Assembly (NCBI GenBank): GCA_017516965.1
Contig: JAFXAP010000015.1
Coordinates: forward strand, 124,001-188,000
DNA: 64,000 nucleotides
From: Clostridia bacterium
Lineage (GTDB): Bacteria; Bacillota; Clostridia; Oscillospirales; Acutalibacteraceae
Direction of reading: 5' to 3'
Positions 6,298-20,774 of the stretch are shown piece by piece (position 1 is the stretch's first letter; each line of letters begins with the position of its first letter). Below the pieces are notes generated by a model that saw nothing but the letters and a program-made list of their open reading frames with translations, did not search any database and had not been told where the DNA came from. The translations under genes and the position numbers were made by a program.

Positions 6298-6443
6298 TAA
6301 AAAGCAAAAAATTTTGTAAAAAATATCAAAAAAATTAGCAAAACCCCTTTTCAAAATGAAAAATATATGTTATTATATATATTGATACAATTTTAACAAT
6401 CTATTTGTTACATTTTGTTGAAATCTGTAAGGAGGATAAATTT

Positions 6444-6941
6444 ATGAAAAAGAAAATCAGCAAACTTCCTTTTAAAGGCACTGCCGAACAGGAAGCGCAA
6501 CTCAAAGCAGTTATCGCTGAAAACTGCCATGACAAAAGCAACGTTATGGTAGTTATGCAAAAGGCTCAAGACATCTACGGATATTTGCCGATTGAGGTTC
6601 AGGAAATGATTGCTGAAGGTATGGGCGTATCTCTTGAAAAAGTGTATGGCGTTGCTACCTTCTACGCGCAGTTCTCTCTCTCACCAAAAGGTAAATACAA
6701 CATCTCTGTTTGCCTTGGTACCGCTTGCTACGTTGTAGGCTCAGGCGACATTTTTGACAAACTCAGCGAAAAATTGGGCATTGGTGCAGACGAATGCACC
6801 GAAGACGGTAAATTCTCTCTCACCGCTTGCCGTTGCATCGGCGCTTGCGGTCTTGCTCCGGTTCTTACCGTTAATGAAGATGTTTTCGGTCGTCTTACTG
6901 TTGACGATGTTGACGACATCCTCGCTAAATATGCTGACTAA
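6444..6941 (+). CDS. hydC: NADH-dependent hydrogenase small subunit, NuoE/HydC type
   Basis: 165 residues from the ATG at 6444, placed 8 bases after AAGGAGG. This is the thioredoxin-like [2Fe-2S] subunit of trimeric [FeFe] hydrogenases (homologous to NuoE, 24 kDa). The four cluster ligands are visible in CLGTACYVVGSG and CRCIGACGLAP. The N-terminal half is the helical bundle typical of NuoE (YGYLPIEVQEMIAEGMGVS). With HydB and HydA it would form a cytoplasmic complex that couples NADH (and perhaps ferredoxin) to hydrogen. It is separated from the rest of its operon by the structured repeat at 6939-7214, whose left arm overlaps this gene's TAA stop codon. Confidence 0.93.
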   Translation: MKKKISKLPFKGTAEQEAQLKAVIAENCHDKSNVMVVMQKAQDIYGYLPIEVQEMIAEGMGVSLEKVYGVATFYAQFSLSPKGKYNISVCLGTACYVVGSGDIFDKLSEKLGIGADECTEDGKFSLTACRCIGACGLAPVLTVNEDVFGRLTVDDVDDILAKYAD

Positions 6942-7214
6942 TGCGTGGAGAGTCTAACCCGCCGCGGTTTCTCTCGGCGCCTTTTAGCTTCTTTCTTGCG
7001 CTCGTTTTTGTAAGGCGCCAGTCTTACTGCAAACTCACGCTTCGCCTTTCATAAAAAGGCGTTAGAGCTAAACTCTTTGACCTGCCAAAAGTAATTTTTT
7101 TGGGAGATCGAGGTCGAAGAACGCAGTAATACTGTCGTATTACAAGTGATGAGACAAGAAAAAATGGAAAAATTTATTTTGTCAGGCGTGGTGTGTTCAA
7201 CTCTCCACGCATTA
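6939..7214 (+). repeat. Structured ~258-bp repeat, copy 1, enclosed by a 15-bp perfect inverted repeat
   Basis: The outer stem is 6939-6953 paired with 7200-7214 (TAATGCGTGGAGAGT and its exact complement). The core from GAGAGT to ACTCTC is 6948-7205, 258 bp. It matches the copy at 19692-19968 along its whole length in the same orientation. Internal hairpins shared by both copies are GTAAG/CTTAC, CGCCTTT/AAAGGCG, GTAATAC-TGTC-GTATTAC, and a long A/T stem joining GACCTGCCAAA to TTTGTCAGG. It contains no open reading frame of note. The left arm begins with the hydC stop codon, and the right arm is followed at once by AAAGGA and the ATG at 7230. Confidence 0.9.
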
Positions 7215-7229
7215 AAGGATAGATAACTT

Positions 7230-7583
7230 ATGAAAATAAGTCAAATGCAACAACTTCTTGAAGCAAGGGTAATTTGCTGTGAGGAAAACATTGAACGTCA
7301 CGTTTATTCAGCGTGTGGTTGTGACCTTATGAGCGATGTTTTAGCCTTTGTTAAAGACCAAGCTGTTTTGCTTACAGGACTTGTTAATCCTCAGGTTATT
7401 CGTACAGCCGAAATGATGGATATGATTTGTGTTGTTTTTGTCCGTTCTAAAGTTCCCACACAAGAAATGATTGACTTGGCGCGTGAAAGCGGCATAGTTT
7501 TAATGGTTTCTGATAAAAGACTTTATGAGGCTTGTGGTTTGCTTTATCAAAGCGGTCTCGTTGGAAACAAGGTTAAAGAATGA
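7230..7583 (+). CDS. DRTGG-domain-like protein of the hydrogenase operon
   Basis: 117 residues, soluble. It resembles the stand-alone DRTGG domains often found in clostridial hydrogenase operons, related to the N-terminal part of HPr kinase/phosphorylase: a helix (SQMQQLLEARVICCEENIE), then VLAFVKDQAVLLTGLVNPQVIRT, then a Rossmann-like end (ESGIVLMVSDKRLYEACGLLY). Biochemical function is unknown; a ligand-sensing role is inferred. A second, more divergent member lies at 9271. The ATG follows AAAGGA, directly after the structured repeat. Its end overlaps the next start by 4 bases, so translation is likely coupled. Confidence 0.75.
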   Translation: MKISQMQQLLEARVICCEENIERHVYSACGCDLMSDVLAFVKDQAVLLTGLVNPQVIRTAEMMDMICVVFVRSKVPTQEMIDLARESGIVLMVSDKRLYEACGLLYQSGLVGNKVKE

Positions 7584-8002
7584 GCGAAATACTCAACTTT
7601 CACTTTCAAGTAGACGGAAATGACTTTACTTCCGCCGGCCAGGCATCAATACAAATCAAAAAAATTCTAAGAAGATTGGGGCTTGACCCCGAAATTATCA
7701 GACGAGTATCCATCGCCATGTACGAAGGCGAAATAAATATGGTAATTCACGCTCACGGCGGAGAAGCCGACGTTAACGTTTATGAAGACCATATTGAAAT
7801 TATTTTAAAGGATAACGGTCCCGGCATTAAAGATATTGAACAGGCAATGCAAGAAGGCTTTTCTACCGCTCCCGACCAAATTCGTTCACTCGGCTTTGGC
7901 GCAGGTATGGGACTTCCAAACATGAAACGCTATACCGACGATATGAAGATTGAATCAGAGGTAGGAGTAGGCACTACCGTTACGATGTGCGTTAACTTAT
8001 AA
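7580..8002 (+). CDS. RsbW/SpoIIAB-like GHKL ATP-binding protein
   Basis: 140 residues forming a single histidine-kinase-type ATPase domain: N box near YEGEINMVIHAHGG, G1 box KDNGPGI, G2 box GFGAGMGLPNMKRY and the terminal VGVGTTVTM. This fold is shared by anti-sigma serine kinases such as RsbW and SpoIIAB. There is no sensor or dimerisation domain, so it is not a histidine kinase by itself. Its place between a DRTGG protein and the sensory hydrogenase paralog suggests signal output from the hydrogenase module, which is inference. The ATG overlaps the previous stop (ATGA). Confidence 0.8.
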   Translation: MSEILNFHFQVDGNDFTSAGQASIQIKKILRRLGLDPEIIRRVSIAMYEGEINMVIHAHGGEADVNVYEDHIEIILKDNGPGIKDIEQAMQEGFSTAPDQIRSLGFGAGMGLPNMKRYTDDMKIESEVGVGTTVTMCVNL

Positions 8003-8012
8003 GGAGGACAAT

Positions 8013-9269
8013 ATGCAAACCTATGAACATTCGGTTTTGCTGGATACCAGCAAATGCACCGGCTGTACCACCTGTTTGCGCCACTGCCCTACCGAAGCTA
8101 TTCGCATAAAGGACGGTCACGCTGTTATAAACAGCGACAGGTGTATAGACTGCGGCGAGTGTATTCGTGTTTGTCCGCATAAGGCAAAAAAGGCCGTATG
8201 CAGCAAACTCGAAAGTATGGACCGCTTTAAGTGGAAAATTGCTCTTCCCGCACCTACTTTGTACGGCCAGTTTGATAATCTTGACGATATTGACTATGTA
8301 CTTGGCGGACTTTTAAACATAGGCTTTGACGATGTTTTTGAAGTTTCAAAGGCGGCAGAGCTTGTATCTGCTTATACACGTCTTTATCTAAAAACCGACG
8401 GGGTTAAAAAGCCTGCTATCAGTTCTGCATGTCCTGTGGTAATGCGACTAATAGCACTGCGTTACCCGTCACTTAACGATAACATTATTCATATGCTGCC
8501 TCCTATGGAGGTTGCCGCCCGTCTTGCACGTGAACGCGCACTAAAAAATCACCCCGAACTTGACCCTTCAGATATTGGCGTTTGTTTTATATCACCCTGC
8601 CCTGCTAAAGCCAGTTATGTTAAGAATGGATTTGCAGGCTATAAAAGTCAAGTGGATGAGGTCGTTTCAATAAGCGATATCTATTTCTTGCTAATTAACG
8701 CAATGAAGAGAGAAGCGCCTGTTGAAACACTTTCAGAATCGGGTATGATTGGTATAGGTTGGGCGCGTAGCGGCGGTGAAGCTACGGCAATTTTTAACGA
8801 GAATTATCTGGCTGCCGACGGAATTGAAAATGTTAATCGTGTTCTCGACCAGATAGAAAACGGAAATATTCCACAACTGGAGTTTGTAGAGCTTAATGCT
8901 TGTACAGGCGGTTGCGTGGGCGGTGTGCTCACAATGCAAAACCCCTTCATTGCAAAAGCCAGACTGCAAACCTTGCGCAGATATTTACCCGTTTCACAAA
9001 ACTTTTTAAATGGCGAAGATTCTAAATATATTCCTGATTACTATCTCTTTAACGAGTTGCCTGAATATCAACCAATCGCCCGACTCAGTGACAGTATGGC
9101 TGAGTCAATGCGTATGATGGCAGATATTCAAAAACTACGTAACACACTGCCCGGTATCGACTGTGGCTCTTGTGGAGCTCCAAGTTGCCGCGCATTTGCC
9201 GAAGACGTAGTAAAGGGAAATGCAAAATTAGAAGATTGCCTTATCAATTTACACAAAAAGGAAGATTAA
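8013..9269 (+). CDS. Sensory-type [FeFe] hydrogenase-like protein with extra Fe-S domains
   Basis: 418 residues. The N-terminus has two [4Fe-4S] ferredoxin motifs (CTGCTTCLRHCP and CIDCGECIRVCP). A hydrogenase large-subunit domain (about 70-340) follows, with degenerate H-cluster motifs: SSACPVV where catalytic enzymes have TSCCPxW, SPCPAK, and NACTGGCVGG. The C-terminus (about 385-410) is a CxxCxxxxC Fe-S domain (CGSCGAPSC). The four cluster cysteines can be aligned, but the preceding proton-transfer cysteine is alanine, as described for sensory (HydS-like) hydrogenases. It is therefore more likely a hydrogen or redox sensor than a catalyst. It starts with ATG after AAGGAGG and sits amid regulatory-type genes of the hyd operon. 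Confidence 0.85.
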   Translation: MQTYEHSVLLDTSKCTGCTTCLRHCPTEAIRIKDGHAVINSDRCIDCGECIRVCPHKAKKAVCSKLESMDRFKWKIALPAPTLYGQFDNLDDIDYVLGGLLNIGFDDVFEVSKAAELVSAYTRLYLKTDGVKKPAISSACPVVMRLIALRYPSLNDNIIHMLPPMEVAARLARERALKNHPELDPSDIGVCFISPCPAKASYVKNGFAGYKSQVDEVVSISDIYFLLINAMKREAPVETLSESGMIGIGWARSGGEATAIFNENYLAADGIENVNRVLDQIENGNIPQLEFVELNACTGGCVGGVLTMQNPFIAKARLQTLRRYLPVSQNFLNGEDSKYIPDYYLFNELPEYQPIARLSDSMAESMRMMADIQKLRNTLPGIDCGSCGAPSCRAFAEDVVKGNAKLEDCLINLHKKED

Positions 9270-9270
9270 A

Positions 9271-9597
9271 ATGACGGTATATGAATTGAGTCAAAACAGT
9301 CAGTTTAATGTTCTTACTATGCCCGAACCCGAAAGAGTAATTAACGGCGCCTATGTCGGCGACCTGCTGAGTTGGGTTATGGGCAAAGCCCAGTACGATA
9401 ACATCTGGATTACTATTATGTCCAACATAAATGTTGTTGCTGTGGCTTCTCTTTCCGATGTGTCTTGTGTTCTTTTGGCAGAAGATGTTACGCTTGACAG
9501 CGAGGTGCTTAACACTGCCAAAGAAAAAGGTATAAATATTCTTTCAACCCCCCTTGCTGCCTATGAAGCCGCTATCACAATATCGGGTATGATATGA
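9271..9597 (+). CDS. Second DRTGG-like small protein
   Basis: 108 residues, soluble, one alpha/beta domain: GAYVGDLLSWVMGKAQ, then IWITIMSNINVVAVASLSDVS, then CVLLAEDVTLDSEVL, ending with a helix. This is the layout of the protein at 7230 and of DRTGG domains, though with little direct identity. It follows the sensory hydrogenase gene by one base, and its stop overlaps the start of the PHP gene. A role with the sensory protein is inferred from the tight coupling. I see no catalytic residues. Confidence 0.7.
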   Translation: MTVYELSQNSQFNVLTMPEPERVINGAYVGDLLSWVMGKAQYDNIWITIMSNINVVAVASLSDVSCVLLAEDVTLDSEVLNTAKEKGINILSTPLAAYEAAITISGMI

Positions 9598-10322
9598 TGA
9601 ACAGGTATTATTACGACCTACATATTCACTCCTGTCTTTCCCCTTGCGGAGACAATGACAACACCCCAAACAATATTGCAGGTATGGCTTCACTTTGTGG
9701 GCTTAACATTGTAGCACTTACCGACCACAACACAACCGATAACTGCCCAGCTTTTTTTGAGGCGGCAAAACGGTATGGTATTATTCCCGTGGCGGGTATG
9801 GAGCTTACCACCAGTGAAGATATACATATTGTATGTTTGTTTGAAACGCTTGAGGGCGCTATGGCTTTTGGCAAAAAGGTAAAGAGTTTGAGCATACCCA
9901 TTAAAAACCGCGTTGATATTTTTGGTTCTCAACTAATACTTGACGGGCAAGACAACATAATCGGAGAAGAAGAAAATTTGCTTATAAATGCAACCCTTAT
10001 TTCTGCAAATGAAGTTCCCGATTTGGTAAATGAGTTTGGTGGCATTTGCTACCCTGCGCACATAGACCGACAGTCAAACGGAATTATATCTGTGCTTGGC
10101 ACTTTTCCTACCACTCCTCATTTTAACTGTGTAGAACTTCACGACGGTAGTAAAACCGAAGAATACGTGCAAAAATACGGCTTGCAAGATAAAAAAATAA
10201 TAGTTAGTTCAGATGCGCACAATCTTACAGATATGCGTGACAAAGAAAACTATTTCGACCTTGACGATGAGCCTTACAGCAGTAATTTTGTAAGAAGCCA
10301 GCTTTTTAAACTTTTGAGGTGA
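9594..10322 (+). CDS. PHP-domain metal-dependent phosphoesterase-like protein
   Basis: 242 residues of the PHP superfamily. Metal-binding motifs are visible: DLHIHSCLSPCGD at the N-terminus, ALTDHNTTDN at about 43, GMELTTSEDIHIVCLF at about 66, PAHIDRQ at about 155 and SSDAHNL near 206. PHP proteins hydrolyse phosphoester bonds (polymerase PHP, histidinol phosphatase, nucleotide phosphatases); the substrate here is unknown. A PHP gene at this place in hydrogenase operons is common in Clostridia. The ATG at 9594 overlaps the previous stop; a second ATG follows at 9597. Confidence 0.85.
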   Translation: MMNRYYYDLHIHSCLSPCGDNDNTPNNIAGMASLCGLNIVALTDHNTTDNCPAFFEAAKRYGIIPVAGMELTTSEDIHIVCLFETLEGAMAFGKKVKSLSIPIKNRVDIFGSQLILDGQDNIIGEEENLLINATLISANEVPDLVNEFGGICYPAHIDRQSNGIISVLGTFPTTPHFNCVELHDGSKTEEYVQKYGLQDKKIIVSSDAHNLTDMRDKENYFDLDDEPYSSNFVRSQLFKLLR

Positions 10323-10328
10323 TATTTT

Positions 10329-10877
10329 ATGAAGGAGTTATCACTTAATATTCTTGATATTACCGAAAATTCCGTAAAAGCGGGTGCAACACTCACCGAA
10401 ATATCTATTGTTGAAAGTGGTGATACACTCACCCTTACAATAAAGGATGACGGTTGCGGTATGAGTGATGAAATACTAAGCACTGTAGAAAATCCATTTT
10501 ATACCACTCGCACCACCAGAAAAGTAGGGCTTGGCATTCCGCTGCTTAAGATGGCGGCTGAAATGACCGGAGGCAAGGTAAAAATAGTTTCAAGCACCAA
10601 TGAGGCTAATCACGGCACCACCGTGACGGCGCACTTTTTTAAAAATCATCTGGACTTCACCCCGCTTGGTGATATAAAAGAAACCATCGTCACCTTAATA
10701 CAGGGTCACCCTGATACCGATTTTCTTTTTACCCACCAAACAAATAGCGGCGAAGTAAAGCTTGACACCCGTGAACTTCGTGTCGCGCTTGAAGGTGTCC
10801 CATTAGATACATACGAGGTTATCGTGTGGATTAAAGAGTATCTTAATGAGCAGTATCAACTGCTAGATAATAGATAA
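10329..10877 (+). CDS. GHKL ATPase with C-terminal extension
   Basis: 182 residues. The first ~110 are a histidine-kinase-like ATPase domain: N box ILDITENSVKAG, G1 box DDGCGMSDE, a VGLGIPLLKMAAE G2 box and a closing NHGTTVTAHF. The remaining ~70 residues (LGDIKETIVTLIQGHPDTDF onward) form a separate small domain that I do not recognise. No phospho-acceptor histidine domain is present. This is the second GHKL protein in the operon and is not a close copy of the one at 7580. It may act as a protein kinase or anti-sigma-like factor, but no partner sigma factor is nearby. Confidence 0.75.
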   Translation: MKELSLNILDITENSVKAGATLTEISIVESGDTLTLTIKDDGCGMSDEILSTVENPFYTTRTTRKVGLGIPLLKMAAEMTGGKVKIVSSTNEANHGTTVTAHFFKNHLDFTPLGDIKETIVTLIQGHPDTDFLFTHQTNSGEVKLDTRELRVALEGVPLDTYEVIVWIKEYLNEQYQLLDNR

Positions 10878-10908
10878 AATAAATAATTCCAGAAAGGAAG
10901 TTATTAAA

Positions 10909-11277
10909 ATGAAATCTTTGGCTGAATTACAGGCAATCAAAGACAAAATGAAAGACAAGGTTGTAATCCGTGAAGGCGTTAGTTCTACCCGCGTTGTTGT
11001 TGGTATGGCTACCTGCGGTATTGCAGCAGGCGCTCGCCCTGTGCTTAGCGCTTTTGTTGAGGCAGTAAACGAAGGCGGTCTCGCTGGGACTGTTACAGTA
11101 TCACAAACAGGTTGTGTTGGCCTTTGCCAGTATGAACCTATTGTAGAGGTTTATGAAGCAGGTAAAGACAAGGTTACCTACGTTAAGATGACTGCTGACA
11201 AGGCAAAAGAAGTTGTTGAAAAGCATCTTAAAGGCGGCAAGGTTGTAACAGAGTACACCGTTGCTAACTGTGAATAA
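10909..11277 (+). CDS. Thioredoxin-like [2Fe-2S] ferredoxin subunit of the hydrogenase
   Basis: 122 residues with a thioredoxin-like [2Fe-2S] fold. The ligands are in MATCGIAAGA and QTGCVGLCQY. It resembles the N-terminal domain of HydB-type proteins and the C-terminal half of NuoE, and stands alone between the regulatory block and hydB, as in other clostridial hyd operons. It probably passes electrons within the NADH-hydrogenase complex. The ATG follows AAAGGAAG. Codon use resembles hydB and hydA (strongly biased), which suggests high expression compared with the preceding regulatory genes. Confidence 0.88.
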   Translation: MKSLAELQAIKDKMKDKVVIREGVSSTRVVVGMATCGIAAGARPVLSAFVEAVNEGGLAGTVTVSQTGCVGLCQYEPIVEVYEAGKDKVTYVKMTADKAKEVVEKHLKGGKVVTEYTVANCE

Positions 11278-11294
11278 TATTTGGAGGTAAAGTT

Positions 11295-13115
11295 ATGATT
11301 CGTGCACATGTACTTATTTGTGGCGGTACAGGCTGTACCTCATCAGGTAGTAAATCAATTCAGGAAGCATTTGAAAAGAACATTGCTGACGCAGGTCTTG
11401 GCGAAGAAGTAAAACTCGTTCAGACAGGTTGCTTTGGTCTTTGCGCATTGGGTCCTGTTGTTATCGTTTATCCTGATGGTACTTTCTATAGCCGTGTTAC
11501 CACCGACGATGTAAAAGAAATTGTTGAAGAACACCTTCTTAAAGGTCGTCCTGTTGAGCGTTTGATTTATAGTGACACAGGCGCTGAAGAGGTTGTAGAG
11601 GCGGCAAGCGTATCACTTAACGATACTGCATTCTACAAATCACAAAACCGTGTTGTTCTTCGTAACTGCGGTGTTATTGACCCTGAAAACATAGACGAGT
11701 ATATCGCTATGGACGGTTACGCAGCGCTCGGTAAGGTTCTTACCGAAATGAAACCTGAAGACGTTATCCAGACTGTTTTGGATTCCGGTCTTCGCGGTCG
11801 TGGCGGCGGCGGCTTCCCAACCGGTCTTAAGTGGAAATTCTGTGCTCCTAACAAAGCAGCTCAAAAATATGTAGTATGTAACGCCGACGAAGGTGACCCA
11901 GGCGCATTCATGGACCGTTCAGTTCTTGAAGGTGACCCACACTGTATTATTGAAGCAATGGCTATTGCAGGTTATGCAGTTGGCGCTACCAAGGGTTACG
12001 TTTACGTTCGTGCTGAATACCCAATCGCTGTTGCTCGTTTGCAAAAGGCTATTGACCAGGCAAATGAATACGGTCTTTTAGGTAAAGACATCTTTGGTTC
12101 AGGCTTTGACTTTGACCTTCAGATTCGTCTTGGCGCAGGCGCATTCGTTTGCGGTGAAGAAACTGCTCTTATGACATCTATTGAAGGCAATCGTGGTGAG
12201 CCACGTCCTCGTCCTCCTTTCCCTGCAGTTAAGGGTCTTTACAACTCACCAACAGTTGAAAACAACGTTGAAACCTTTGCTAATATTCCTCAAATCATCC
12301 TTAAAGGTGCTGATTGGTTTAAGACAATGGGTACCGAAAAGGCTCCCGGTACAAAGGTATTTGCGCTTGGTGGTAAAATTGAGCACACAGGTCTTGTAGA
12401 AATTTCTATGGGTACTACACTTCGTCACATTATCGAAGACATCGGCGGCGGTATTCCTAACGGTAAGAAATTCAAGGCTGCTCAGACAGGTGGTCCTTCA
12501 GGCGGTTGTATTCCTGAATCACTTATCGATACCGAGGTTGACTTTGACAACCTTACAGCCATCGGTTGTATGATGGGTTCAGGCGGTCTTATCGTTATGG
12601 ACGAAGACAACTGTATGGTTGATATGGCTAAATTCTTCCTTGAATTTACCGTTGACGAATCTTGCGGTAAGTGTACTCCTTGCCGTGTTGGTACAAAACG
12701 TCTTCTTGAAATGCTTGATAAAATTACCGAAGGTAAGGCTACACTCGAAGACCTTGACAAACTTGAAGAGCTTTGCTATTACATTAAGCAAAACTCACTT
12801 TGCGGCCTTGGTCAGACAGCGCCAAACCCTGTTCTTGCAACACTTAAGTTCTTCCGCGATGAGTATGTAGCTCACGTTGTTGACAAAAAGTGTCCTGCAG
12901 GCGTATGTAAAGATCTTCTTACATTTGTTGTTGATAAAGATAAGTGTATCGGTTGCGGTATGTGCGCAAGAAACTGCCCTGTTAACGCTATTGCTAAGAC
13001 AGACTACATAGCACCCGGTCACAAACTTGCTTCTTACGAAATTGATACTACCAAGTGCATTAAGTGCGGTGTATGTATTGGTAACTGTAAGTTCAAGGCA
13101 ATCAGTAAGGTTTAA
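11295..13115 (+). CDS. hydB: NADH-binding flavoprotein subunit of the trimeric [FeFe] hydrogenase (NuoF/HydB)
   Basis: 606 residues. Domain order: thioredoxin-like [2Fe-2S] (ICGGTGCTSSGS, QTGCFGLCALG; 1-90); NuoF core with FMN site GRGGGGFPTG at about 166 and NADH site CNADEGDPGAF at about 194; the [4Fe-4S] motif SCGKCTPCRVG with the distal NSLCGLGQ; and a C-terminal 2[4Fe-4S] ferredoxin (CIGCGMCARNCP and CIKCGVCIGNCK). It oxidises or reduces NAD(H) and splits electrons between the flavin and Fe-S chain to HydA. It follows the ferredoxin subunit by 17 bases and precedes hydA by 18. The start is clear (GGAGGTAAAGTTATG). Confidence 0.97.
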   Translation: MIRAHVLICGGTGCTSSGSKSIQEAFEKNIADAGLGEEVKLVQTGCFGLCALGPVVIVYPDGTFYSRVTTDDVKEIVEEHLLKGRPVERLIYSDTGAEEVVEAASVSLNDTAFYKSQNRVVLRNCGVIDPENIDEYIAMDGYAALGKVLTEMKPEDVIQTVLDSGLRGRGGGGFPTGLKWKFCAPNKAAQKYVVCNADEGDPGAFMDRSVLEGDPHCIIEAMAIAGYAVGATKGYVYVRAEYPIAVARLQKAIDQANEYGLLGKDIFGSGFDFDLQIRLGAGAFVCGEETALMTSIEGNRGEPRPRPPFPAVKGLYNSPTVENNVETFANIPQIILKGADWFKTMGTEKAPGTKVFALGGKIEHTGLVEISMGTTLRHIIEDIGGGIPNGKKFKAAQTGGPSGGCIPESLIDTEVDFDNLTAIGCMMGSGGLIVMDEDNCMVDMAKFFLEFTVDESCGKCTPCRVGTKRLLEMLDKITEGKATLEDLDKLEELCYYIKQNSLCGLGQTAPNPVLATLKFFRDEYVAHVVDKKCPAGVCKDLLTFVVDKDKCIGCGMCARNCPVNAIAKTDYIAPGHKLASYEIDTTKCIKCGVCIGNCKFKAISKV

Positions 13116-13133
13116 GAAAGGAGCCAAAATATA

Positions 13134-14888
13134 ATGGATATGATTAATGTAAAAATTAACGGTATTGCTGTAAGCGTACCAAAGGGCTCCACTGTTTTAG
13201 AGGCTGCCCGCGTAGCTGGTGTAGAAATTCCTACCCTTTGCTTTATGAAAGAACGCAACGAAATCGGCGCTTGCCGTATCTGTATGGTAGAGGTTAACGA
13301 AGGTCGCGGTTTCCGTCTTGTTACCGCTTGCGTTTACCCCTGCACCGATGGTATGGAAGTTATCACCAACTCTGAAAAGGTTCAAAAGTCACGCAAGACT
13401 ACACTTGAGCTTATTCTTTCAACACACGATAAAAAATGTCTCTCTTGCGCTCGTTCAACAAATTGTGAACTTCAAAAGCTTTGCCGTGACTACGGCGTAG
13501 ATGAAGGCGCATTTGACGGCTTTAAGCCTGTATATGACCTTGACTACAGCACACCACACCTTGTACGTGACAACAACAAGTGTATTCTTTGCCGTCGTTG
13601 CGTAGCAGTTTGTGAAGAGCAGTATGTTAGCGTTATAGGCGCAAACGACCGTGGTATTGACACCAACATTGGTCAGGCATTTGAGCTTTCTCTTAACAAC
13701 ACACCTTGTATCTCTTGCGGTCAGTGTACTGCAGTTTGTCCTACAGGCGCTCTTACCGAAAGAGATGATACCGATAAGATTTGGGCAGCTCTTGCTGATC
13801 CTAGCAAAACAGTTGTTGTTCAGACAGCTCCTTCTATCCGCGCAACCTTGGGTGAATGCTTTGGTATGCCAATCGGTTCTAACGTAGAAGGCAAAATGGT
13901 AGCAGCTCTTCGTCGTCTTGGTTTCGACAAGGTATTTGATACCAACTTTGCCGCTGACCTTACCATTGTTGAAGAAGCAAATGAACTTATTGATCGTGTT
14001 AAAAATGGCGGTGTGCTCCCAATGATCACATCTTGCTCACCAGGTTGGGTTAAGTTCTGCGAACTTTACTACCCCGATATGATTAATCACCTTTCAAGCT
14101 GTAAGTCACCTCAGCAGATGGCAGGCGCAGTTATTAAGACATACTGGGCAGAAAAAGCAGGCATTGACGCTAAAGATATCGTAAGCGTATCAGTAATGCC
14201 TTGTACTGCTAAGAAGTTTGAAATTGGTCGTGAAGATCAGTCAGCTGCAGGTGTTCCTGACGTTGATATCGCTATCACAACACGTGAACTTGGTCGTATG
14301 ATTGACCGTGCAGGTCTTAACTTTGCAAACCTTCCTGACGAAGAATTTGACAATCCACTTGGTGAAGACACCGGTGCGGCTGTTATATTCGGTGCTACAG
14401 GCGGCGTTATGGAGGCTGCTCTTCGTACCGCTAATGACTGGATTAGCGGCAAAGACAACGCTGACGTTGACTACACTGCAGTTCGTGGCACAATGGGTCT
14501 GAAACAGGCTACTGCTAAGCTTGGCGATATGGAAGTTAAGGTTGCTGTAGCTTCCGGCGCTGCTGCTGCAAAGGTTGTTATGGACAAAATGAAGGCAGGC
14601 AACCCAGACGGTTGGACCTTTGTTGAAATTATGGGATGCCCCGGCGGTTGTGTAAACGGCGGCGGTCAGCCAATTCAACCTCAGTCGGTTCGCGACACAG
14701 TTGATTTGAAGGCTGTTCGTGCAAAGGCACTCTATGACCAGGATGCTGCAAGCCTCATCCGCAAATCACACGAGTCACCTGTTGTAAAGGCACTTTACAG
14801 CGAATGGTATGACGGTTTTGGCGGCCACAAGGCTCATCACGACCTCCACACCACATATGTTGCTCGTAAGAAATACAACGCTGAATAA
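13134..14888 (+). CDS. hydA: [FeFe] hydrogenase catalytic subunit (NADH-dependent, trimeric type)
   Basis: 584 residues, cytoplasmic; it makes or consumes H2. The N-terminus is a [2Fe-2S] ferredoxin fold (about 1-80, GACRICMVEV), then a His/Cys [4Fe-4S] site (HDKKCLSCARSTNCE), two [4Fe-4S] clusters (CILCRRCVAVC and CISCGQCTAVCP), and the H-cluster domain from about 210. H-cluster motifs read TSCSPGW, MPCTAKKFE and MGCPGGCVNGGGQP. The first has Ser where many enzymes have a second Cys; I recall this variant in other trimeric enzymes but cannot verify it. The C-terminal tail with LYSEWYDGFGGHKAHH is typical. Its maturases HydE, HydF and HydG are not in the window. Confidence 0.97.
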   Translation: MDMINVKINGIAVSVPKGSTVLEAARVAGVEIPTLCFMKERNEIGACRICMVEVNEGRGFRLVTACVYPCTDGMEVITNSEKVQKSRKTTLELILSTHDKKCLSCARSTNCELQKLCRDYGVDEGAFDGFKPVYDLDYSTPHLVRDNNKCILCRRCVAVCEEQYVSVIGANDRGIDTNIGQAFELSLNNTPCISCGQCTAVCPTGALTERDDTDKIWAALADPSKTVVVQTAPSIRATLGECFGMPIGSNVEGKMVAALRRLGFDKVFDTNFAADLTIVEEANELIDRVKNGGVLPMITSCSPGWVKFCELYYPDMINHLSSCKSPQQMAGAVIKTYWAEKAGIDAKDIVSVSVMPCTAKKFEIGREDQSAAGVPDVDIAITTRELGRMIDRAGLNFANLPDEEFDNPLGEDTGAAVIFGATGGVMEAALRTANDWISGKDNADVDYTAVRGTMGLKQATAKLGDMEVKVAVASGAAAAKVVMDKMKAGNPDGWTFVEIMGCPGGCVNGGGQPIQPQSVRDTVDLKAVRAKALYDQDAASLIRKSHESPVVKALYSEWYDGFGGHKAHHDLHTTYVARKKYNAE

Positions 14889-14901
14889 TCAGTAAAATCT
14901 A

Positions 14902-14934
14902 ACACCCTAAGGTATGTACCTTAGGGTGTTTTTT
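14902..14934. terminator. Terminator of the hydrogenase operon, shared with malQ
   Basis: A 13-bp perfect stem (ACACCCTAAGGTA with its complement), 2-base loop, then TTTTTT on the plus strand. It lies at the junction of convergent hydA and malQ. Confidence 0.9.
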
Positions 14935-16414
14935 AATTTCTTTCTTTAGTAAGCTTTTTTAGCAGTTTTGCATTGTCTTGATTTATATCATCTTTACTCA
15001 TTCGCCACACCCAGTTATCTCCTATAGTGCCGGGTGTATTCATACGGGCGCTGCTATCAAGGCACAACACGTCCTGCATTGGTATAATCAGTAACATTGA
15101 ATCTGATTTTGACAACGCTCGTATCATATCGTGCGAAACACAACCCGTGTTATTACGTATAAGGGTGTTAAAAATCACTCTTTCTTTAGTAGACGCTTTG
15201 TTATACCAGCCAAGTGCTGTATCATTATCGTGAGTGCCCGTATAGCACACACAATTATATGGGTAATTTTGCGGCAGATATATATTCTCCATATCACCGC
15301 CAAATCCAAACTGCAAAATTTTCATATTAGGAAAGTCGGTATGCTTTAAAAGCTCTATCACCTTTTCGTCCTCTTCGCCACCTAAATCCTCAGCTATTAT
15401 ATTGATTTCACCTATGTTTTCCCGCATCTTGTCCCAAAAGGTTGCGTCCTCGCCATCAATCCAACTGCCCGAAAGGGCGTTATTACTACCAGCAGGTATT
15501 TGATAAAACCGAGCAAATGCGCGAAAATGGTCTATGCGCACTACATCATACATATCACAGCAAAACTTTAGGCGTGATGTCCACCAACGATAGTCTGATT
15601 CCCTCATATTTTGCCAATTATATATGGGGTTCCCCCACAATTGACCGTTTTCAGAAAAAACGTCAGACGGCACACCTGCAACCATTGTAGGCGTAAAATC
15701 ACGCGAAAGTAAAAAATCGTCGGGATTACCCCACACGTCAGCGCTATCGGGAGCTACATAAAAAGGTATGTCGCCTATAATTTTTACACCATTTTGGTTT
15801 GCATAACGCTTTAATTCGTAATACTGACAAAAGAAAAAATACTGAGTAACCTTATAAAACTCGATAACCGGTTTGTATTTTTGTTTAAACACTTCAATAA
15901 AATCGGGCAGTTTATATTTAAAACCCTCAGGCAAATCAGATATGCTGTCGGCGCAGTATATTTCAGATGCCGCCGCAAAAAGCGCATAGTCTTCGAGCCA
16001 AAACTTGTTATCACTCAAAAAACTTTTATAGTTTTTACTCGTAGTATCAAAGTTATTTACCGCTTTTTTAAGCAGCGGAATTTTAATTTTTCGCGCAAGC
16101 GCGTAATCGACATTTTTGCCGAAATTACAATCATTTATATCTTCTTTACAAAGAAGTCGGTCACTAAGCAAAAAATCAATATCGATATAGAGTATCTCAC
16201 CGGCAAAGCTACTTGGCGACTTATAGGGCGAATTGCCCTCACCTAACGGACAAAGGGGTAATATTTGCCAAAATTTTTGATTTGAATCACGCAAAAAATC
16301 AATAAATTTATAAGCCTCAACACCAAGACTTCCTATGCCATAGGAAGAGGGCAATGATGATACTGCCAATAATACACCGCTATACCTCTTTTGCGTTTTA
16401 TCCTTTGACGGCAC
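14933..16414 (-). CDS. malQ: 4-alpha-glucanotransferase (amylomaltase, GH77)
   Basis: 493 residues, the full length for GH77. It transfers maltosyl and longer glucans between alpha-1,4-glucans in the cytoplasm. Visible motifs are SSLPSSYGIGSLG near the N-terminus, KIIGDIPFYVAPDSADVW, VRIDHFRAFARFY (nucleophile Asp region), IAEDLGG (acid/base Glu), GTHDNDTALGW, and RMNTPGTIGDNWVWR near the end. The likely start is GTG at 16414, overlapping the end of the upstream permease gene by 17 bases, so it is the last gene of the sugar ABC operon. This implies that the imported sugar is a malto-oligosaccharide. Confidence 0.95.
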   Translation of the reverse strand: MPSKDKTQKRYSGVLLAVSSLPSSYGIGSLGVEAYKFIDFLRDSNQKFWQILPLCPLGEGNSPYKSPSSFAGEILYIDIDFLLSDRLLCKEDINDCNFGKNVDYALARKIKIPLLKKAVNNFDTTSKNYKSFLSDNKFWLEDYALFAAASEIYCADSISDLPEGFKYKLPDFIEVFKQKYKPVIEFYKVTQYFFFCQYYELKRYANQNGVKIIGDIPFYVAPDSADVWGNPDDFLLSRDFTPTMVAGVPSDVFSENGQLWGNPIYNWQNMRESDYRWWTSRLKFCCDMYDVVRIDHFRAFARFYQIPAGSNNALSGSWIDGEDATFWDKMRENIGEINIIAEDLGGEEDEKVIELLKHTDFPNMKILQFGFGGDMENIYLPQNYPYNCVCYTGTHDNDTALGWYNKASTKERVIFNTLIRNNTGCVSHDMIRALSKSDSMLLIIPMQDVLCLDSSARMNTPGTIGDNWVWRMSKDDINQDNAKLLKKLTKERN

Positions 16415-17231
16415 CGGCTGCCACTCCCTTTATAATATATTTTTGACAAGTCAGGTAAAAAGTCACCACCGGCACAATGCTGAGCACCAGCATTGCCATC
16501 ATAGCGCCCATATCAACCGAACCGTAACCACCCTTTAAATACTGAACTGCAATCGGTATGGTTTTGTAATCGCTTCCTATTATAAGATAAGGTAACAGGT
16601 AATCATTCCATATCCACATTGTATTAAGAATTGCAACCGTTATAGCAGTTGGCCTCAGCATTGGAAAAACTACGTGCCAAAAGGTTTGAAAAACATTGCA
16701 TCCGTCTATAATTGCCGCTTCCTCAAGACTTATTGGGATTGATTTTACAAAACCTGAAAAGATAAAAACCGAAAGCCCGGCGCCAAATCCCAAATATATA
16801 AAAATTAGTCCAAATGGATTATCAAGTCTTAATAAATTGGCAATTTTCGACATTGTAAACATAACCATCTGAAATGGCACTATCATTGAAAATACAAATA
16901 AATAATATAGCGTTTTGTTAAACCGCGTTTTATTTCTTGTTATATACCACGCAGTCATAGAAGTAAACAACACAATTACCCCAACCGAAGAAAGTGTAAT
17001 AAAAAGCGACCAAAAAAATGCCGAAGGGAAACCCGTGTCTGCTATACCGTTTATATAGTTTTCAACACCTGAAAACGTGGTGCTGTTAGGCAATACAAAT
17101 GGGGTTTGACTTATAGAAAACTTATCTTTAAAAGAATTGGCAACAACGGTGATTATCGGAATTAAAAATACAAAGCTAAGAGCTACTAAAAACACAAATA
17201 TTAGAATGTCTGAAATTCTTGTTTTTTTCAT
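16398..17231 (-). CDS. Carbohydrate ABC transporter permease, MalG type
   Basis: 277 residues with about six membrane helices. The first is near residues 8-32. The ABC inner-membrane signature loop is EEAAIIDGCNVFQTFWHVVFPML (EAA motif) at about 167-190. The C-terminus KGVAAGAVKG is typical of MalG-like permeases of the CUT1 family. The ATG overlaps the stop of the partner permease by one base (TAATG). No ATPase gene is in the operon; in Firmicutes a shared MsmX-type ATPase encoded elsewhere usually energises such systems. Confidence 0.93.
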   Translation of the reverse strand: MKKTRISDILIFVFLVALSFVFLIPIITVVANSFKDKFSISQTPFVLPNSTTFSGVENYINGIADTGFPSAFFWSLFITLSSVGVIVLFTSMTAWYITRNKTRFNKTLYYLFVFSMIVPFQMVMFTMSKIANLLRLDNPFGLIFIYLGFGAGLSVFIFSGFVKSIPISLEEAAIIDGCNVFQTFWHVVFPMLRPTAITVAILNTMWIWNDYLLPYLIIGSDYKTIPIAVQYLKGGYGSVDMGAMMAMLVLSIVPVVTFYLTCQKYIIKGVAAGAVKG

Positions 17232-18076
17232 TAATTTTCAACCTCTCGGCTTCGTGTTAGATATAACTGTAATAACGCAACTACTGCTACCAGTATAAAA
17301 AATACAACCGCTTTTGCCTGACCAACGCCCTCGTAGCCTACCCTGCCATAAAAGGTGTTGTAAATATCAAGCGCTACCATTTGTGTCTGCTTTGCGGGCG
17401 CGCCTGCGGTCAGCGCTAAGTTTTGGTCAAATAGTTTAAACGAGTTGGTTATTGTTAAAAAAAGACAAATGGTAATTGACGGCATTACCGAAGGAATTAT
17501 AATGCTTCTAAGTGTCCTTAAAGGTGTTGCTCCGTCAACACGAGCCGCCTCTAATATAGCTGTGGGTATGTTTTGTATTCCCGCGATATAAAGCACCATC
17601 ATATAACCTATCATCTGCCAGGAACTTAGCGCCACCAAGCCCCAATAGCCAAATGTGGCATTTGACGTTATAGAGTAACCATAGTTATACAAAATTCCAT
17701 TTATAATAAGCTGCCATATATAACCGAGCACTATTCCGCCTATAAGATTTGGCATAAAAAACACAGTACGAAAAAGATTTGTACCGCGTATGCCTCGCGT
17801 TAACATAAGCGCCAGCAAAAACGCTATAACGTTTATAACAATTATCGCGGCAAAGGCAAAACGGACTGTAAACCATAGCGCATTTAAAAAATCGCCGTTT
17901 GCGCTGAATGCGCGTATATAATTCTCAAAACCTACAAAGTTTGCATCGCTTACCGTTCTGAACTCGCAAAACGACAGATATAACCCCATTATAAAAGGAA
18001 TTAAAAACGCGATGCTAAATGCTACAAATGTAGGCAGTACAAATACGGAAAACCACCGCTTTGAAGCATATCTCAC
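17231..18076 (-). CDS. Sugar ABC transporter permease, MalF type
   Basis: 281 residues with six predicted membrane helices; EAA loop ILEAARVDGATPLRTLRSII at about 185-205. It pairs with the MalG-type permease downstream to form the channel of a CUT1 importer. The start is GTG at 18076, whose first bases overlap the stop of the binding-protein gene (GTGA). The first segment (WFSVFVLPTFVAFSIAFLIPF) is a membrane helix rather than a cleaved signal. Confidence 0.93.
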   Translation of the reverse strand: MRYASKRWFSVFVLPTFVAFSIAFLIPFIMGLYLSFCEFRTVSDANFVGFENYIRAFSANGDFLNALWFTVRFAFAAIIVINVIAFLLALMLTRGIRGTNLFRTVFFMPNLIGGIVLGYIWQLIINGILYNYGYSITSNATFGYWGLVALSSWQMIGYMMVLYIAGIQNIPTAILEAARVDGATPLRTLRSIIIPSVMPSITICLFLTITNSFKLFDQNLALTAGAPAKQTQMVALDIYNTFYGRVGYEGVGQAKAVVFFILVAVVALLQLYLTRSREVEN

Positions 18077-19407
18077 TTTCTTTCACTCTTCCACATCGAT
18101 TTAACGGTGTTTTGCACATCATTCCATTGCTTTCCACCCTGAACGTACTCAAGTAATTGTCCACCTACCTCGGTTTTAAAAACATCGCTTGGAAAAGATG
18201 TAAAAATCCAGGGTACTGTGTCGGTGTCAGAGTTATTCATATATCTTACCACCTCACGCGCAAGAGGATCAGATGGTAGTTCTTGCTCACTAAAGCTTTT
18301 AAATGGTGTAATAAAATCCAATTTATTAGTTACATAATCTTTGCCTATATCACTGCTATATAGCCAATACAAAAAGTCAAGGGATTTTTTTTGCTGGTCC
18401 TCGGTTGCGTTTTTATTTATGGCAAGATAATTCTCGGTGCCTATGCAAATACCCTGCTTTTCTTCGCCCTGAATGCCCGTATAAATAGGTAAAAATTTAA
18501 TGTCACTTTCAGACACTGTGTTGCCCTTAACGTCTTTGATTTGAGACCAGGCCCAGTTTCCGTTTTGCACCATTGCAACCTGACCTAAGGCAAATTCTGC
18601 CATAGAATCGTTTGTTGATTTCGAACCTAATAAACCCTTTTCGGTAGCAGAATTATTTACATACAAATCAAAAATATTTTTATAGTTTTCTGAAAATCTA
18701 AAGGCAATCTCTTTCGCATTAAGACCCGCTATTGTAGGGTCAGCATAGTCCTCACTGTCTTTAAACTCGTAATAAAGCGGAACATTAAGCAAATGTGTCT
18801 GCCAACGCCAATCTTCGCCCGAAGCCATCGAGGTTGATGCAAAAACGCCCTTGATTCCAAGTTCATCTTTTCGTGATGTCATATCTTCGACAACAGCCTT
18901 TAAGGTGTCAAAATTATTGATTTGCTCGGCGCTGTCAATCTTTGTTTGGCGACCGTTAAGCGCAAAATATTTTTTCATAATAGCATTATTATAAATAATG
19001 CCATAGCCCTCAACCACGTATGGTACTGCATATATACCCTTACCTTCGCGGTCTTTGATAGCCAGTGTATCATCACTGAGCAGTTTTGCAAAATCACTAT
19101 TTTCTATATTAAGGCAATAATCTTTCCAGGATTCATAACCTATAGGTCCGTTAACTTGAAAAATGGTGGGCGCACCTGATTTTGCAATTTCAGATTTAAG
19201 CGTTTGCTCGTATGTGTTTGCGGCGGCGGTTACAACCTTTACCTTAACACCTGTTTCTTCTTCATATTTTTTTGCTATTTCCTGATAGACTTCAGCCGAT
19301 TCCGGTTTAAAGTTTAAATAATAAACCTCGGCATTGTTTCGCTCACCACAGGCTGTAAGTGACAAAACAAAAACAATAACTAAAATTAAAGTCAAAAATT
19401 TTTTCAT
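18073..19407 (-). CDS. Extracellular sugar-binding lipoprotein of the ABC importer
   Basis: 444 residues. Lipoprotein signal peptide with lipobox LTACG near residue 20, then a family 1 solute-binding domain (YLNFKPESAEVYQEIAKKYEEETGVKV; later PYVVEGYGIIYN and MAEFALGQVAMVQNGNWAW). It captures the sugar outside the membrane and delivers it to the permeases. With malQ at the end of the operon, malto-oligosaccharides are the likely ligand. The ATG at 19407 follows AAAGGAG. A possible operator palindrome lies at 19483-19503. Confidence 0.94.
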   Translation of the reverse strand: MKKFLTLILVIVFVLSLTACGERNNAEVYYLNFKPESAEVYQEIAKKYEEETGVKVKVVTAAANTYEQTLKSEIAKSGAPTIFQVNGPIGYESWKDYCLNIENSDFAKLLSDDTLAIKDREGKGIYAVPYVVEGYGIIYNNAIMKKYFALNGRQTKIDSAEQINNFDTLKAVVEDMTSRKDELGIKGVFASTSMASGEDWRWQTHLLNVPLYYEFKDSEDYADPTIAGLNAKEIAFRFSENYKNIFDLYVNNSATEKGLLGSKSTNDSMAEFALGQVAMVQNGNWAWSQIKDVKGNTVSESDIKFLPIYTGIQGEEKQGICIGTENYLAINKNATEDQQKKSLDFLYWLYSSDIGKDYVTNKLDFITPFKSFSEQELPSDPLAREVVRYMNNSDTDTVPWIFTSFPSDVFKTEVGGQLLEYVQGGKQWNDVQNTVKSMWKSERK

Positions 19408-19482
19408 AACAAACTCCTTTGATTTAATACTGATAATATCTTTGCCGATTTTAAGTTAAATAATACAAAATTATTAAAAACC

Positions 19483-19503
19483 GATTGTACTAATCGCACA
19501 ATC
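19483..19503. promoter_or_regulatory. Palindromic operator candidate upstream of the sugar ABC operon
   Basis: Arms GATTGT and ACAATC are separated by 9 bases, about 75 bases upstream of the binding-protein start. The size and placement suit a LacI-type or similar sugar repressor, none of which is encoded in the window. The rest of 19408-19649 is AT-rich with nothing else I can name. Confidence 0.35.
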
Positions 19504-19649
19504 AGTTCTTTTTTTAATTTAAAAAACAGATATTTTCTTTTTACTCTTACAACACAATTGGTTTGTCTTATGAATTTTTACCTTTTTTATATATAGCAAA
19601 ATTTCTCCTTTTACATATCTATAACACGAAAAATACGCCATATAAACTG

Positions 19650-19678
19650 TTGACATTATTTAATGTAAAATTTATAAT
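19650..19678 (+). promoter_or_regulatory. Consensus promoter upstream of repeat copy 2 and parA
   Basis: TTGACA (19650-19655), exactly 17 bases, TATAAT (19673-19678). Transcription should begin near 19685, a few bases before the structured repeat, which would then form almost the whole untranslated leader of the parA transcript. Confidence 0.85.
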
Positions 19679-19691
19679 ATATATGTATATA

Positions 19692-19968
19692 TAGGCTGAC
19701 GAGAGTCGAACACGTTACGGTTTCGCTCGCCGCCTTTTCCCACTTTTCTCGCGTTTATTTTTGCAAGGTCTCACCTTGCTGCAAATTTCACGCTTCGCCT
19801 TTTGTAAAAAGGCGGCTGAGAGGAACTCTTCGACCTGCCAAACAAATAATTTTTTGGAGAGGCGAAATCGAAGAGTGCAGTAATACTGTCGTATTACAAA
19901 CGATGAGATAAGAAAAAACAAAAAATTATTATTTGTCAGGCGTGACGGGCTCGACTCTCGTCAGCCTA
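19692..19968 (+). repeat. Structured ~259-bp repeat, copy 2, enclosed by an 18-bp perfect inverted repeat
   Basis: Outer stem 19692-19709 (TAGGCTGACGAGAGTCGA) pairs perfectly with 19951-19968. The core GAGAGT to ACTCTC is 19701-19959, 259 bp, against 258 bp in copy 1. Internal hairpins: GCAAGG/CCTTGC (GTAAG/CTTAC in copy 1), CGCCTTTT/AAAAGGCG, GTAATAC-TGTC-GTATTAC, and a long A/T-rich stem between CCTGCCAAACAAATAAT and ATTATTATTTGTCAGG. It is followed directly by AAAGGAGG and the TTG start of parA. No significant reading frame is inside. Confidence 0.9.
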
Positions 19969-19985: not shown

Positions 19986-20774
19986 TTGAAAACCACAACA
20001 ATTTGTTTTGCCAACAACAAAGGTGGCAGCGGTAAATCAACTACTTGCTGTAACATAGGGTATGAACTTTCTAAAATGGGATATAAAGTGCTGGTTTTAG
20101 ACGGTGATATGCAAATGAATCTGTCACTTTCACTCTTTGGTGAAGATGAGGTTTTGCAGTCGGCGCAAAACGGCAACAACATTTATACCGCCATTACCCA
20201 AGGCGACGACATCGAAAAATACATAAAGCCCACTAAATACGAAAACCTTGATGCTGTGCTTTCGTCCTCTTTGATGAGTAATATAGAGTTCGACCTTTTT
20301 TCAAAATGGCAACGTGAATTCATTTTGAAAAACTGTCTTAATAATATTAAGCAAAGTAATAAATATGACTTTATTTTGCTTGATGCCCCGCCAACACTTG
20401 GCGGTTGGGTTATGAATATGCTTTGCGCGTCAGATTATTTAATAATTCCCGTAGAAGCAAGTCCCTGGGGGCTTTTTGGTCTTGCTAATATGTTTGAATT
20501 TTTTGCAACCGTTAACCAGATTAATCCCGAAATCTCTTTGCTTGGAATTGCCGTAACAAAGGTTGATACGCGTAAAAACTACTTTAAACAAACTGTTGAT
20601 GCCCTACAAAACACCGAGGGTGTTCACCTGTTCCAAAATTTTGTTCGTACCGATAGCTCTATTGAATGGGCGCAGGACGCATCACTGCCTGTTGCCGTAT
20701 ACAAGCCATCAGCACGAAGCGCTAAAGAGTATAAAGCGCTCACCGAGGAGGTAGTTTCACTTGTCAATAGGTAA
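19986..20774 (+). CDS. ParA-family ATPase
   Basis: 262 residues. Deviant Walker A KGGSGKSTTC at about residue 11 with the signature lysine, ParA-type LVLDGDMQMNLSLSLFG, Walker A' region FILLDAPPTLGG, and IPVEASPWGLFGLANM. ParA/MinD ATPases move DNA or protein cargo by ATP-dependent dimerisation on the nucleoid. The start is TTG at 19986, 9 bases after AAAGGAGG; no ATG lies near. It is followed with a 14-base overlap by a short ParB-like gene. The pair is not next to gidB, rnpA or other origin-type genes, so it is probably not the chromosomal Soj/Spo0J. Its cargo is unknown. Confidence 0.88.
   Translation: MKTTTICFANNKGGSGKSTTCCNIGYELSKMGYKVLVLDGDMQMNLSLSLFGEDEVLQSAQNGNNIYTAITQGDDIEKYIKPTKYENLDAVLSSSLMSNIEFDLFSKWQREFILKNCLNNIKQSNKYDFILLDAPPTLGGWVMNMLCASDYLIIPVEASPWGLFGLANMFEFFATVNQINPEISLLGIAVTKVDTRKNYFKQTVDALQNTEGVHLFQNFVRTDSSIEWAQDASLPVAVYKPSARSAKEYKALTEEVVSLVNR

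Follow-up and report, generated by a model that had tools for sequence, protein, structure and literature searches.

REPs and REPINs, together with RAYTs, combine palindromic repeats, paired inverted hairpins and mini remnants – features that recur in the element described here – and some insertion sequences are known to target palindromes such as REPs. Other small repeats, MITEs among them, resemble the element in different ways. Bacterial MITEs with TA ends, one of them linked to IS630, are established according to the portions of two sources that were available to us (PMC2229807, PMC10969869). In the available part of the first, RUP of Streptococcus pneumoniae is described as a 107-bp MITE whose ends are like those of an IS630 element and which is linked to IS630-Spn1 (PMC2229807). 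The same partial source gives Correia/NEMIS (one Correia type) and ERIC as 107 bp and 127 bp, with a stem-loop formed from the two ends (PMC2229807). Within our partial coverage of the literature on MITEs, no title or abstract was recognised as the element reported below.

The element is present twice, in the same orientation, in the window (the whole stretch of 64,000 nucleotides that was analysed, from a Clostridia bacterium), as the earlier note had claimed. Counting the TA at both ends, copy 1 is a full-length element of 276 bp (6939..7214, plus strand), delimited by its sequence and by an empty site in two relatives; copy 2, delimited by its sequence and by alignment to copy 1, is a full-length element of 277 bp (19692..19968, plus strand). 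The two are 78% identical over 258 bp (E 2.9e-49). Outer arms of 28 nt, located with an inverted-repeat finder, lie on the plus strand at 6939..6966 (the terminal inverted repeat that provides the 5′ side of the outer stem, P1) and 7187..7214 in copy 1, and at 19692..19719 and 19941..19968 in copy 2; they are 82% and 89% complementary, and spaced by 220 and 221 nt, respectively. The arm sequences TAATGCGTG and TAGGCTGAC each pair perfectly with their own far end, as had been stated, but they are not unique to a single copy. Apart from the element, the window contains a direct repeat of 300 nt (28850-29149 and 41224-41523, 78% identical).

Two hairpins occupy the interior. The second of these, P4/H2, extends over 7079..7187 in copy 1 and 19832..19941 in copy 2, and is matched on the plus strand by R1, a covariance model of this hairpin built on 24 copies (107.3 and 126.9 bits, each window copy being itself in the model). 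The first, P2/H1, at 6967..7075 and 19720..19828, is matched by the same model on the minus strand (44.1 and 39.1 bits), and so represents the second hairpin in inverted and diverged form. The differing internal hairpins noticed previously are both present (GTAAG/CTTAC at 7010-7027; GCAAGG/CCTTGC at 19763-19779), as is the one said to be identical, GTAATAC-TGTC-GTATTAC, found within P4/H2 at 7126-7143 and 19880-19897. Folded as RNA, copies 1 and 2 have z-scores of -8.2 and -8.1, with none of 200 shuffles equally good; folded as DNA, the z-scores are -6.3 and -8.9. Rfam covariance models run against the whole window found no family at its gathering score, and copy 1 alone drew three weak, unrelated snoRNA-family matches, far under their gathering scores.

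Evidence that the element has moved comes from the site of copy 1, which lies between a gene for a thioredoxin-like [2Fe-2S] ferredoxin (6405..6941, plus strand; PF01257, E 6.5e-50) and the next ORF (7230..7583, plus strand; no Pfam match at E 0.001) in a cluster that includes an iron-hydrogenase-type protein. The ferredoxin gene's stop codon, TAA, takes its TA from the first TA of copy 1; removing the copy and keeping one TA therefore restores the stop codon. The comparison of loci with and without the element that the earlier note had proposed gave precisely this arrangement: the flanks joined by a single TA match the genomes G026 (locus L098) and G035 (L100) across the junction, and the remaining nine aligned relatives are also without the element at this site, with small indels or substitutions. 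That a filled site carries two TAs and an empty site one is shown at copy 1 only, where a TA borne by the element would look alike. Among 47 full-length copies, 32 have TA at both aligned ends.

Copy 2 is placed between a consensus promoter, recognised by eye directly upstream (TTGACA-17-TATAAT, 19650..19678, plus strand), and the AAGGAGG ribosome-binding site of a gene for a ParA-type ATPase (19986..20774, plus strand; PF13614, E 3.6e-49). Given that promoter, the ParA gene's leader would consist largely of copy 2. Both window copies could affect the mRNAs of adjacent genes, a putative effect on the host.

A prior-free analysis of covariation ranks at the top the pairs of three helices: the outer stem P1, P2/H1 and P4/H2. 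R1, the model of P4/H2, recognises P2/H1 as well, on the opposite strand, both in the window's two copies and in many relatives, so that the inside of the element comprises two homologous, diverged copies of one hairpin set face to face. Almost all of the element is therefore self-complementary DNA. Copies for comparison were filtered by discarding 17 duplicates, 12 in which another repeat ranked above the outer one, and matches below 60 bits or without a repeat; 53 were kept, one of the 12 (L008) was restored by hand, and the final full-length set numbered 47. The earlier note had asked for the significance of the covariation. In an alignment thinned by hand from these 47 copies to 33, 92.2% of cells are paired and 59 of 85 pairs have changed on both sides, and neither value was reached in any of 500 shuffles (mean, 34 both-side pairs); sliding the partners yields 16-24 such pairs. 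P1 is paired in 92.5% of cells over the 33 copies, the reverse of the many copies with unpaired arms that would have spoken against the pattern. A candidate pseudoknot, TCTTCGAC / GTCGAAGA, was dropped by eye, several copies being without it.

The element is widespread. Its own genome has seven known places: four full-length copies (the two in the window, C6:10572 and C9:17412), two internally deleted copies (C1:69085 and C7:2399) and a 33-bp palindrome (C12:13756). A DNA search of the genus was positive for 29 of 70 genomes, some matches being weak or partial. When copies were counted by covariance model, as the earlier note had suggested, 67 of 300 genomes and 38 of 135 genera of the host family were matched by R1, with up to 12 candidates scored per genome under strict filters. 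The conserved-hairpin pattern was found in 32 stretches of public genomes, whose titles name Clostridia, Oscillospiraceae or Ruminococcaceae MAGs and, in many cases, the ruminant gut. Length is constant: 20 of 25 loci checked for outer ends (15 genera) span 271-279 bp, even with unrelated arms, by a script able to return from about 230 to 370 bp; two of the other five have poor ends and three have none. In one relative (G069) a single 25-nt end occurs 60 times with at most three mismatches, giving 20 two-ended copies, 17 of which are 275 bp, a copy number that looks like a recent burst. Searches of plasmids with copy 1, and of phages with the G069 element, gave no match. Most searches of viral contigs were likewise matchless, and in the three contigs that surfaced no copy of the element was seen: L217 matched only via a tRNA-Asp gene, L218 has nothing element-like within the 370 bases inspected, and the match in L269 lies inside long ORFs and is without an R1 match.

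Over this conserved core the outer arms vary. The types include TAGGCTGACG, TAGGGTGACA, TAGTGTGACA, TAATGCGTGG, TAATCTGAAG and TAGTCAATGC, plus a group with ATAGGGA or TTAGGGA, and because the TAATGCGTG arm recurs at other sites of its own genome and in two further genomes (G024 and G026), arm types are inherited in lineages. Shortened forms accompany the full-length copies. Six derivatives of ~160 bp (L009, L010, L082, L083, L093 and L036) have lost largely the same part of the interior, so that the first half of hairpin 1 is fused to the second half of hairpin 2, and have differing outer arms. Mini-palindromes of about 27-54 bp, which remain at numerous sites, consist of the two arms alone (L123, L126, L127, L011, L163, L168, L170 and L266); they resemble REP-type repeats and risk being mistaken for a separate family. 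Short repeats seen by eye at some deletion joints suggest slippage at the hairpin base.

As a separate observation, several arm types have a right arm that looks like a tRNA 3′ end, comprising T-arm and acceptor strand (for example GGTTCGACTCTCGTCAGCCT), as at 19941-19968 in the window and at L088; the tRNA-Asp at 2192-2266 of L217 may be compared. An origin of the arms from tRNA was considered and rejected: the type-A arm is like a tRNA 3′ end (the tRNA-Asp of L217), and the arm of the G069 type is not.

The suggestion in the earlier note that the element targets hairpins seems to divide along the same lines as the arms. For the TA type, to which the window copies belong, the tested sites give it no support: none of 43 lies within a hairpin, with 0.52 expected, the test being confined to sites whose two ends both carry TA and taking in 7 copies from G069. 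For a sister branch, whose outer arm adjoins ATAGGGA or TTAGGGA, it may hold: five of six sites (L201, L037, L039, L121 and L247; the exception is L120) are inside terminator-like hairpins, against 0.6 expected from mismatched flanks, these six having been grouped by arm motif after some flanks had been seen and three coming from one genome (G019). The sister branch has one diverged copy in the genome of the window itself (L201, ~1850-2125; hairpin match G000:C9:17412-17522), which sits inside the loop of the terminator-like hairpin AAAAAAGACCGCA / TGCGGTCTTTTTT, just after that genome's RNase P RNA gene. By eye, L237, of another arm type, may also sit in a hairpin.

We consider it probable – at roughly 0.8 – that the window copies are a non-autonomous, MITE-like DNA element that inserts at TA, whose outer arms are terminal inverted repeats, and that is moved in trans by a transposase recognising matched ends. 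That it is a small mobile element, one of the two possibilities raised in the earlier note, agrees with the empty site bearing one TA at copy 1, with the many copies and with the burst in one relative; the element is too short to encode a transposase (276-277 bp) and is multi-copy (seven places in its own genome, 20 two-ended copies in G069). The element would enter a TA, turning the one TA of the empty site into the two of the filled site, and a transposase supplied in trans, recognising the matched ends, presumably moves it. In lineages that are moving, both ends would have to match one enzyme and the palindromes would be kept; it would follow that paired bases change together and that end types diverge between lineages. 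Copies no longer moving would decay, and deletions between the arms would trim some of them. Counting against this explanation, matched ends alone leave the covariation of the internal hairpins unexplained.

The mobiliser was not found, the transposase families searched being DDE_3 and Y1_Tnp. A duplicated TA target is what a MITE of IS630/Tc1-mariner descent would have. The DDE_3 (PF13358, IS630-type) transposase was found in none of the 70 genomes of the genus and none of 20 further element-carrying genomes of the family, by a search that was positive in 3 of 14 control genomes. Nor was there an autonomous relative with the same ends among the fetched loci, in part of which the ORFs were judged by eye, whole genomes being searched by end pattern. 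This search – which took in end patterns, the single ends of G069, end pairing in loci above 2,500 bases and 20 further places in the genus – yielded remnants, contig-edge copies, neighbouring copies and one complete copy (L259); single ends, in G069 and elsewhere, proved to be contig-edge copies, truncated ends and mini-palindromes, plus this same complete copy. L161 is the only locus read in which the ends enclose more (2 kb) than neighbouring copies, and its ORFs, judged by eye, are without a transposase.

A central issue is the level at which pairing is maintained. A selected transcript would tolerate G-U pairs but not A-C. Folded on the plus strand, the element shows 4.5% G-T and 2.7% A-C (ratio 1.69), against 11.5% and 0.4% (ratio 27) for RNase P RNA of the same genus in its own fold, the control being a 14-sequence subset of 30 with a mean identity of 81% and the elements, at 71%, more diverged. 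When only pairs that occur in both strands' folds are counted, the element (weighted for relatedness) has 3.4% and 2.8% (ratio 1.24) and RNase P 2.9% and 0.6% (ratio 4.55). Six settings of the control gave one identical result and were counted once; the alignment of all 30 RNase P sequences, which is too diverged (mean identity 55%), gives a plus-fold ratio of 4.2 and a common-pair ratio of 2.3. By helix, common-pair G-T and A-C stand at 4.6% and 4.0% in P1, 2.7% and 3.1% in P2/H1, and 3.1% and 1.4% in P4/H2, so that P4/H2, with a ratio of 2.29, leans to the plus strand and P2/H1 leans the opposite way. The mismatches of the element are much nearer to strand symmetry than those of RNase P, which argues for pairing mainly at the DNA level, and DNA-level pairing seems to explain the data better than a structured RNA. 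The earlier attribution of the pattern to selection on the folding of RNA or DNA thus keeps its core, for the covariation is real, but the near-symmetric mismatches seem to point to DNA more than to RNA.

For the co-changing pairs there is a serious alternative: the element could be an ordinary MITE in which template switching between imperfect inverted repeats produces the compensated changes, with no selection on folding. In the part of the source available, template switching is put forward as a process by which hairpins arise and are repaired (PMC8794818). Near-symmetric mismatches suit such a DNA process, some compensated pairs adjoin one another (for example, six of the eight TA-proximal arm pairs between the window copies), and the deletions between arms agree with hairpins forming at replication. 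The same mutation process, though, predicts equal compensation wherever a copy resides, and copies fixed at one site across species compensate 5 of 56 changed pairs (four overlapping comparisons), against 102 of 461 for copies at different sites with 84-90% identity (40 overlapping comparisons); at 90-95% identity, where there is no same-site pair, different-site copies compensate 19 of 143. Counted over independent pairs, the difference (3 compensated and 26 broken when fixed, 23 and 76 when moving) is not significant (Fisher p 0.19), and we take it only as a hint that pairing is kept while a lineage moves and decays afterwards. On balance we hold template switching to be a possible account that falls short of being the likelier one.

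Turning from the co-changing pairs to what the mobilising enzyme reads, it is conceivable, if rather doubtful, that the element is moved by its folded DNA shape and not by the sequence of its ends, which could then drift so long as they stay paired, the end type setting the target. The constant length and two-hairpin plan across many genera would fit this tentative idea, the targets being an open TA for one end type and a terminator hairpin's loop for another. It would also require, with the same degree of doubt, a moving enzyme from a class that has so far not been connected with MITEs.

We regard it as unlikely that the copies are a new family of structured RNA, with a regulatory or catalytic role and its transcript under selection, that rides on a mobile element. 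The strong fold and covariation would be expected of one, the wobble of P4/H2 is biased towards the plus strand (G-U 3.1%, A-C 1.4%), and copy 2, downstream of the consensus promoter recognised by eye, would be transcribed. However, wobble over the element as a whole is nearly symmetric, unlike that of RNase P, with P2/H1 leaning the other way; no Rfam family reaches its gathering score; and, by eye from the flanks, the strand facing the neighbouring gene varies between sites. A structured RNA was accordingly set aside as the main reading on the wobble test against RNase P. Of the alternatives that the earlier note had offered – a new structured RNA or a hairpin-targeting mobile element – the former is the weaker, and the latter survives as a mobile element, with no sign of hairpin targeting at the tested sites of the type found in the window.

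Most improbable of all is a REPIN-like element on whose folded single strands a REP-type (Y1, HUH) transposase acts: Y1_Tnp (PF01797) is present in 49 of the 70 genus genomes, and paired inverted hairpins with mini-palindrome remnants are reminiscent of REPs, but Y1_Tnp is without a match in the element's own genome (G000, assembly 85% complete) and in the burst genome G069 (94% complete), and long perfect terminal repeats with a TA duplication are not known to be the REPIN pattern.

The preferred reading, a MITE-like element moved in trans, bears on how structured repeats are classified. Covariation commonly passes for proof that an RNA is functional; in this case it is strong, and it comes with near-symmetric mismatches and with mobility, so that the wobble test can help to separate DNA palindromes from RNAs. 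Pipelines for finding RNAs could misfile such elements. This family combines what looks like a recent burst, in which no IS630-type enzyme is visible, with two end types that apparently have different targets and share one core, and it thus offers a tractable system in which to ask how MITEs change their ends and what moves them.

Comparison with described systems places the element close to several of them. It differs from REPs and REPINs in that neither its own genome nor the burst genome has a Y1 transposase match. With insertion sequences that target palindromes it shares the position of its sister branch inside hairpin loops, but the element is 276 bp and non-coding, the loops are terminator-like and no such preference is seen for the type in the window. 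Like RUP, as the latter appears in the available part of the source, it is small and intergenic, with terminal inverted repeats and insertion at TA (PMC2229807); unlike RUP, it is without DDE_3 in 90 genomes and its end types vary over a conserved core. CIR of Caulobacter and Brucella likewise has two hairpin arms per repeat, but is listed, with a footnote, as without terminal inverted repeats in the portion of the source at hand (PMC2229807), whereas in the window element the arms stand on a long closing stem. Correia/NEMIS and ERIC, as the same partial source describes them, share TA termini, a long stem-loop and multiple copies (PMC2229807); the window element is set apart from these by its two homologous internal hairpins, its spans of 271-279 bp in 20 loci of 15 genera and its exchangeable ends.
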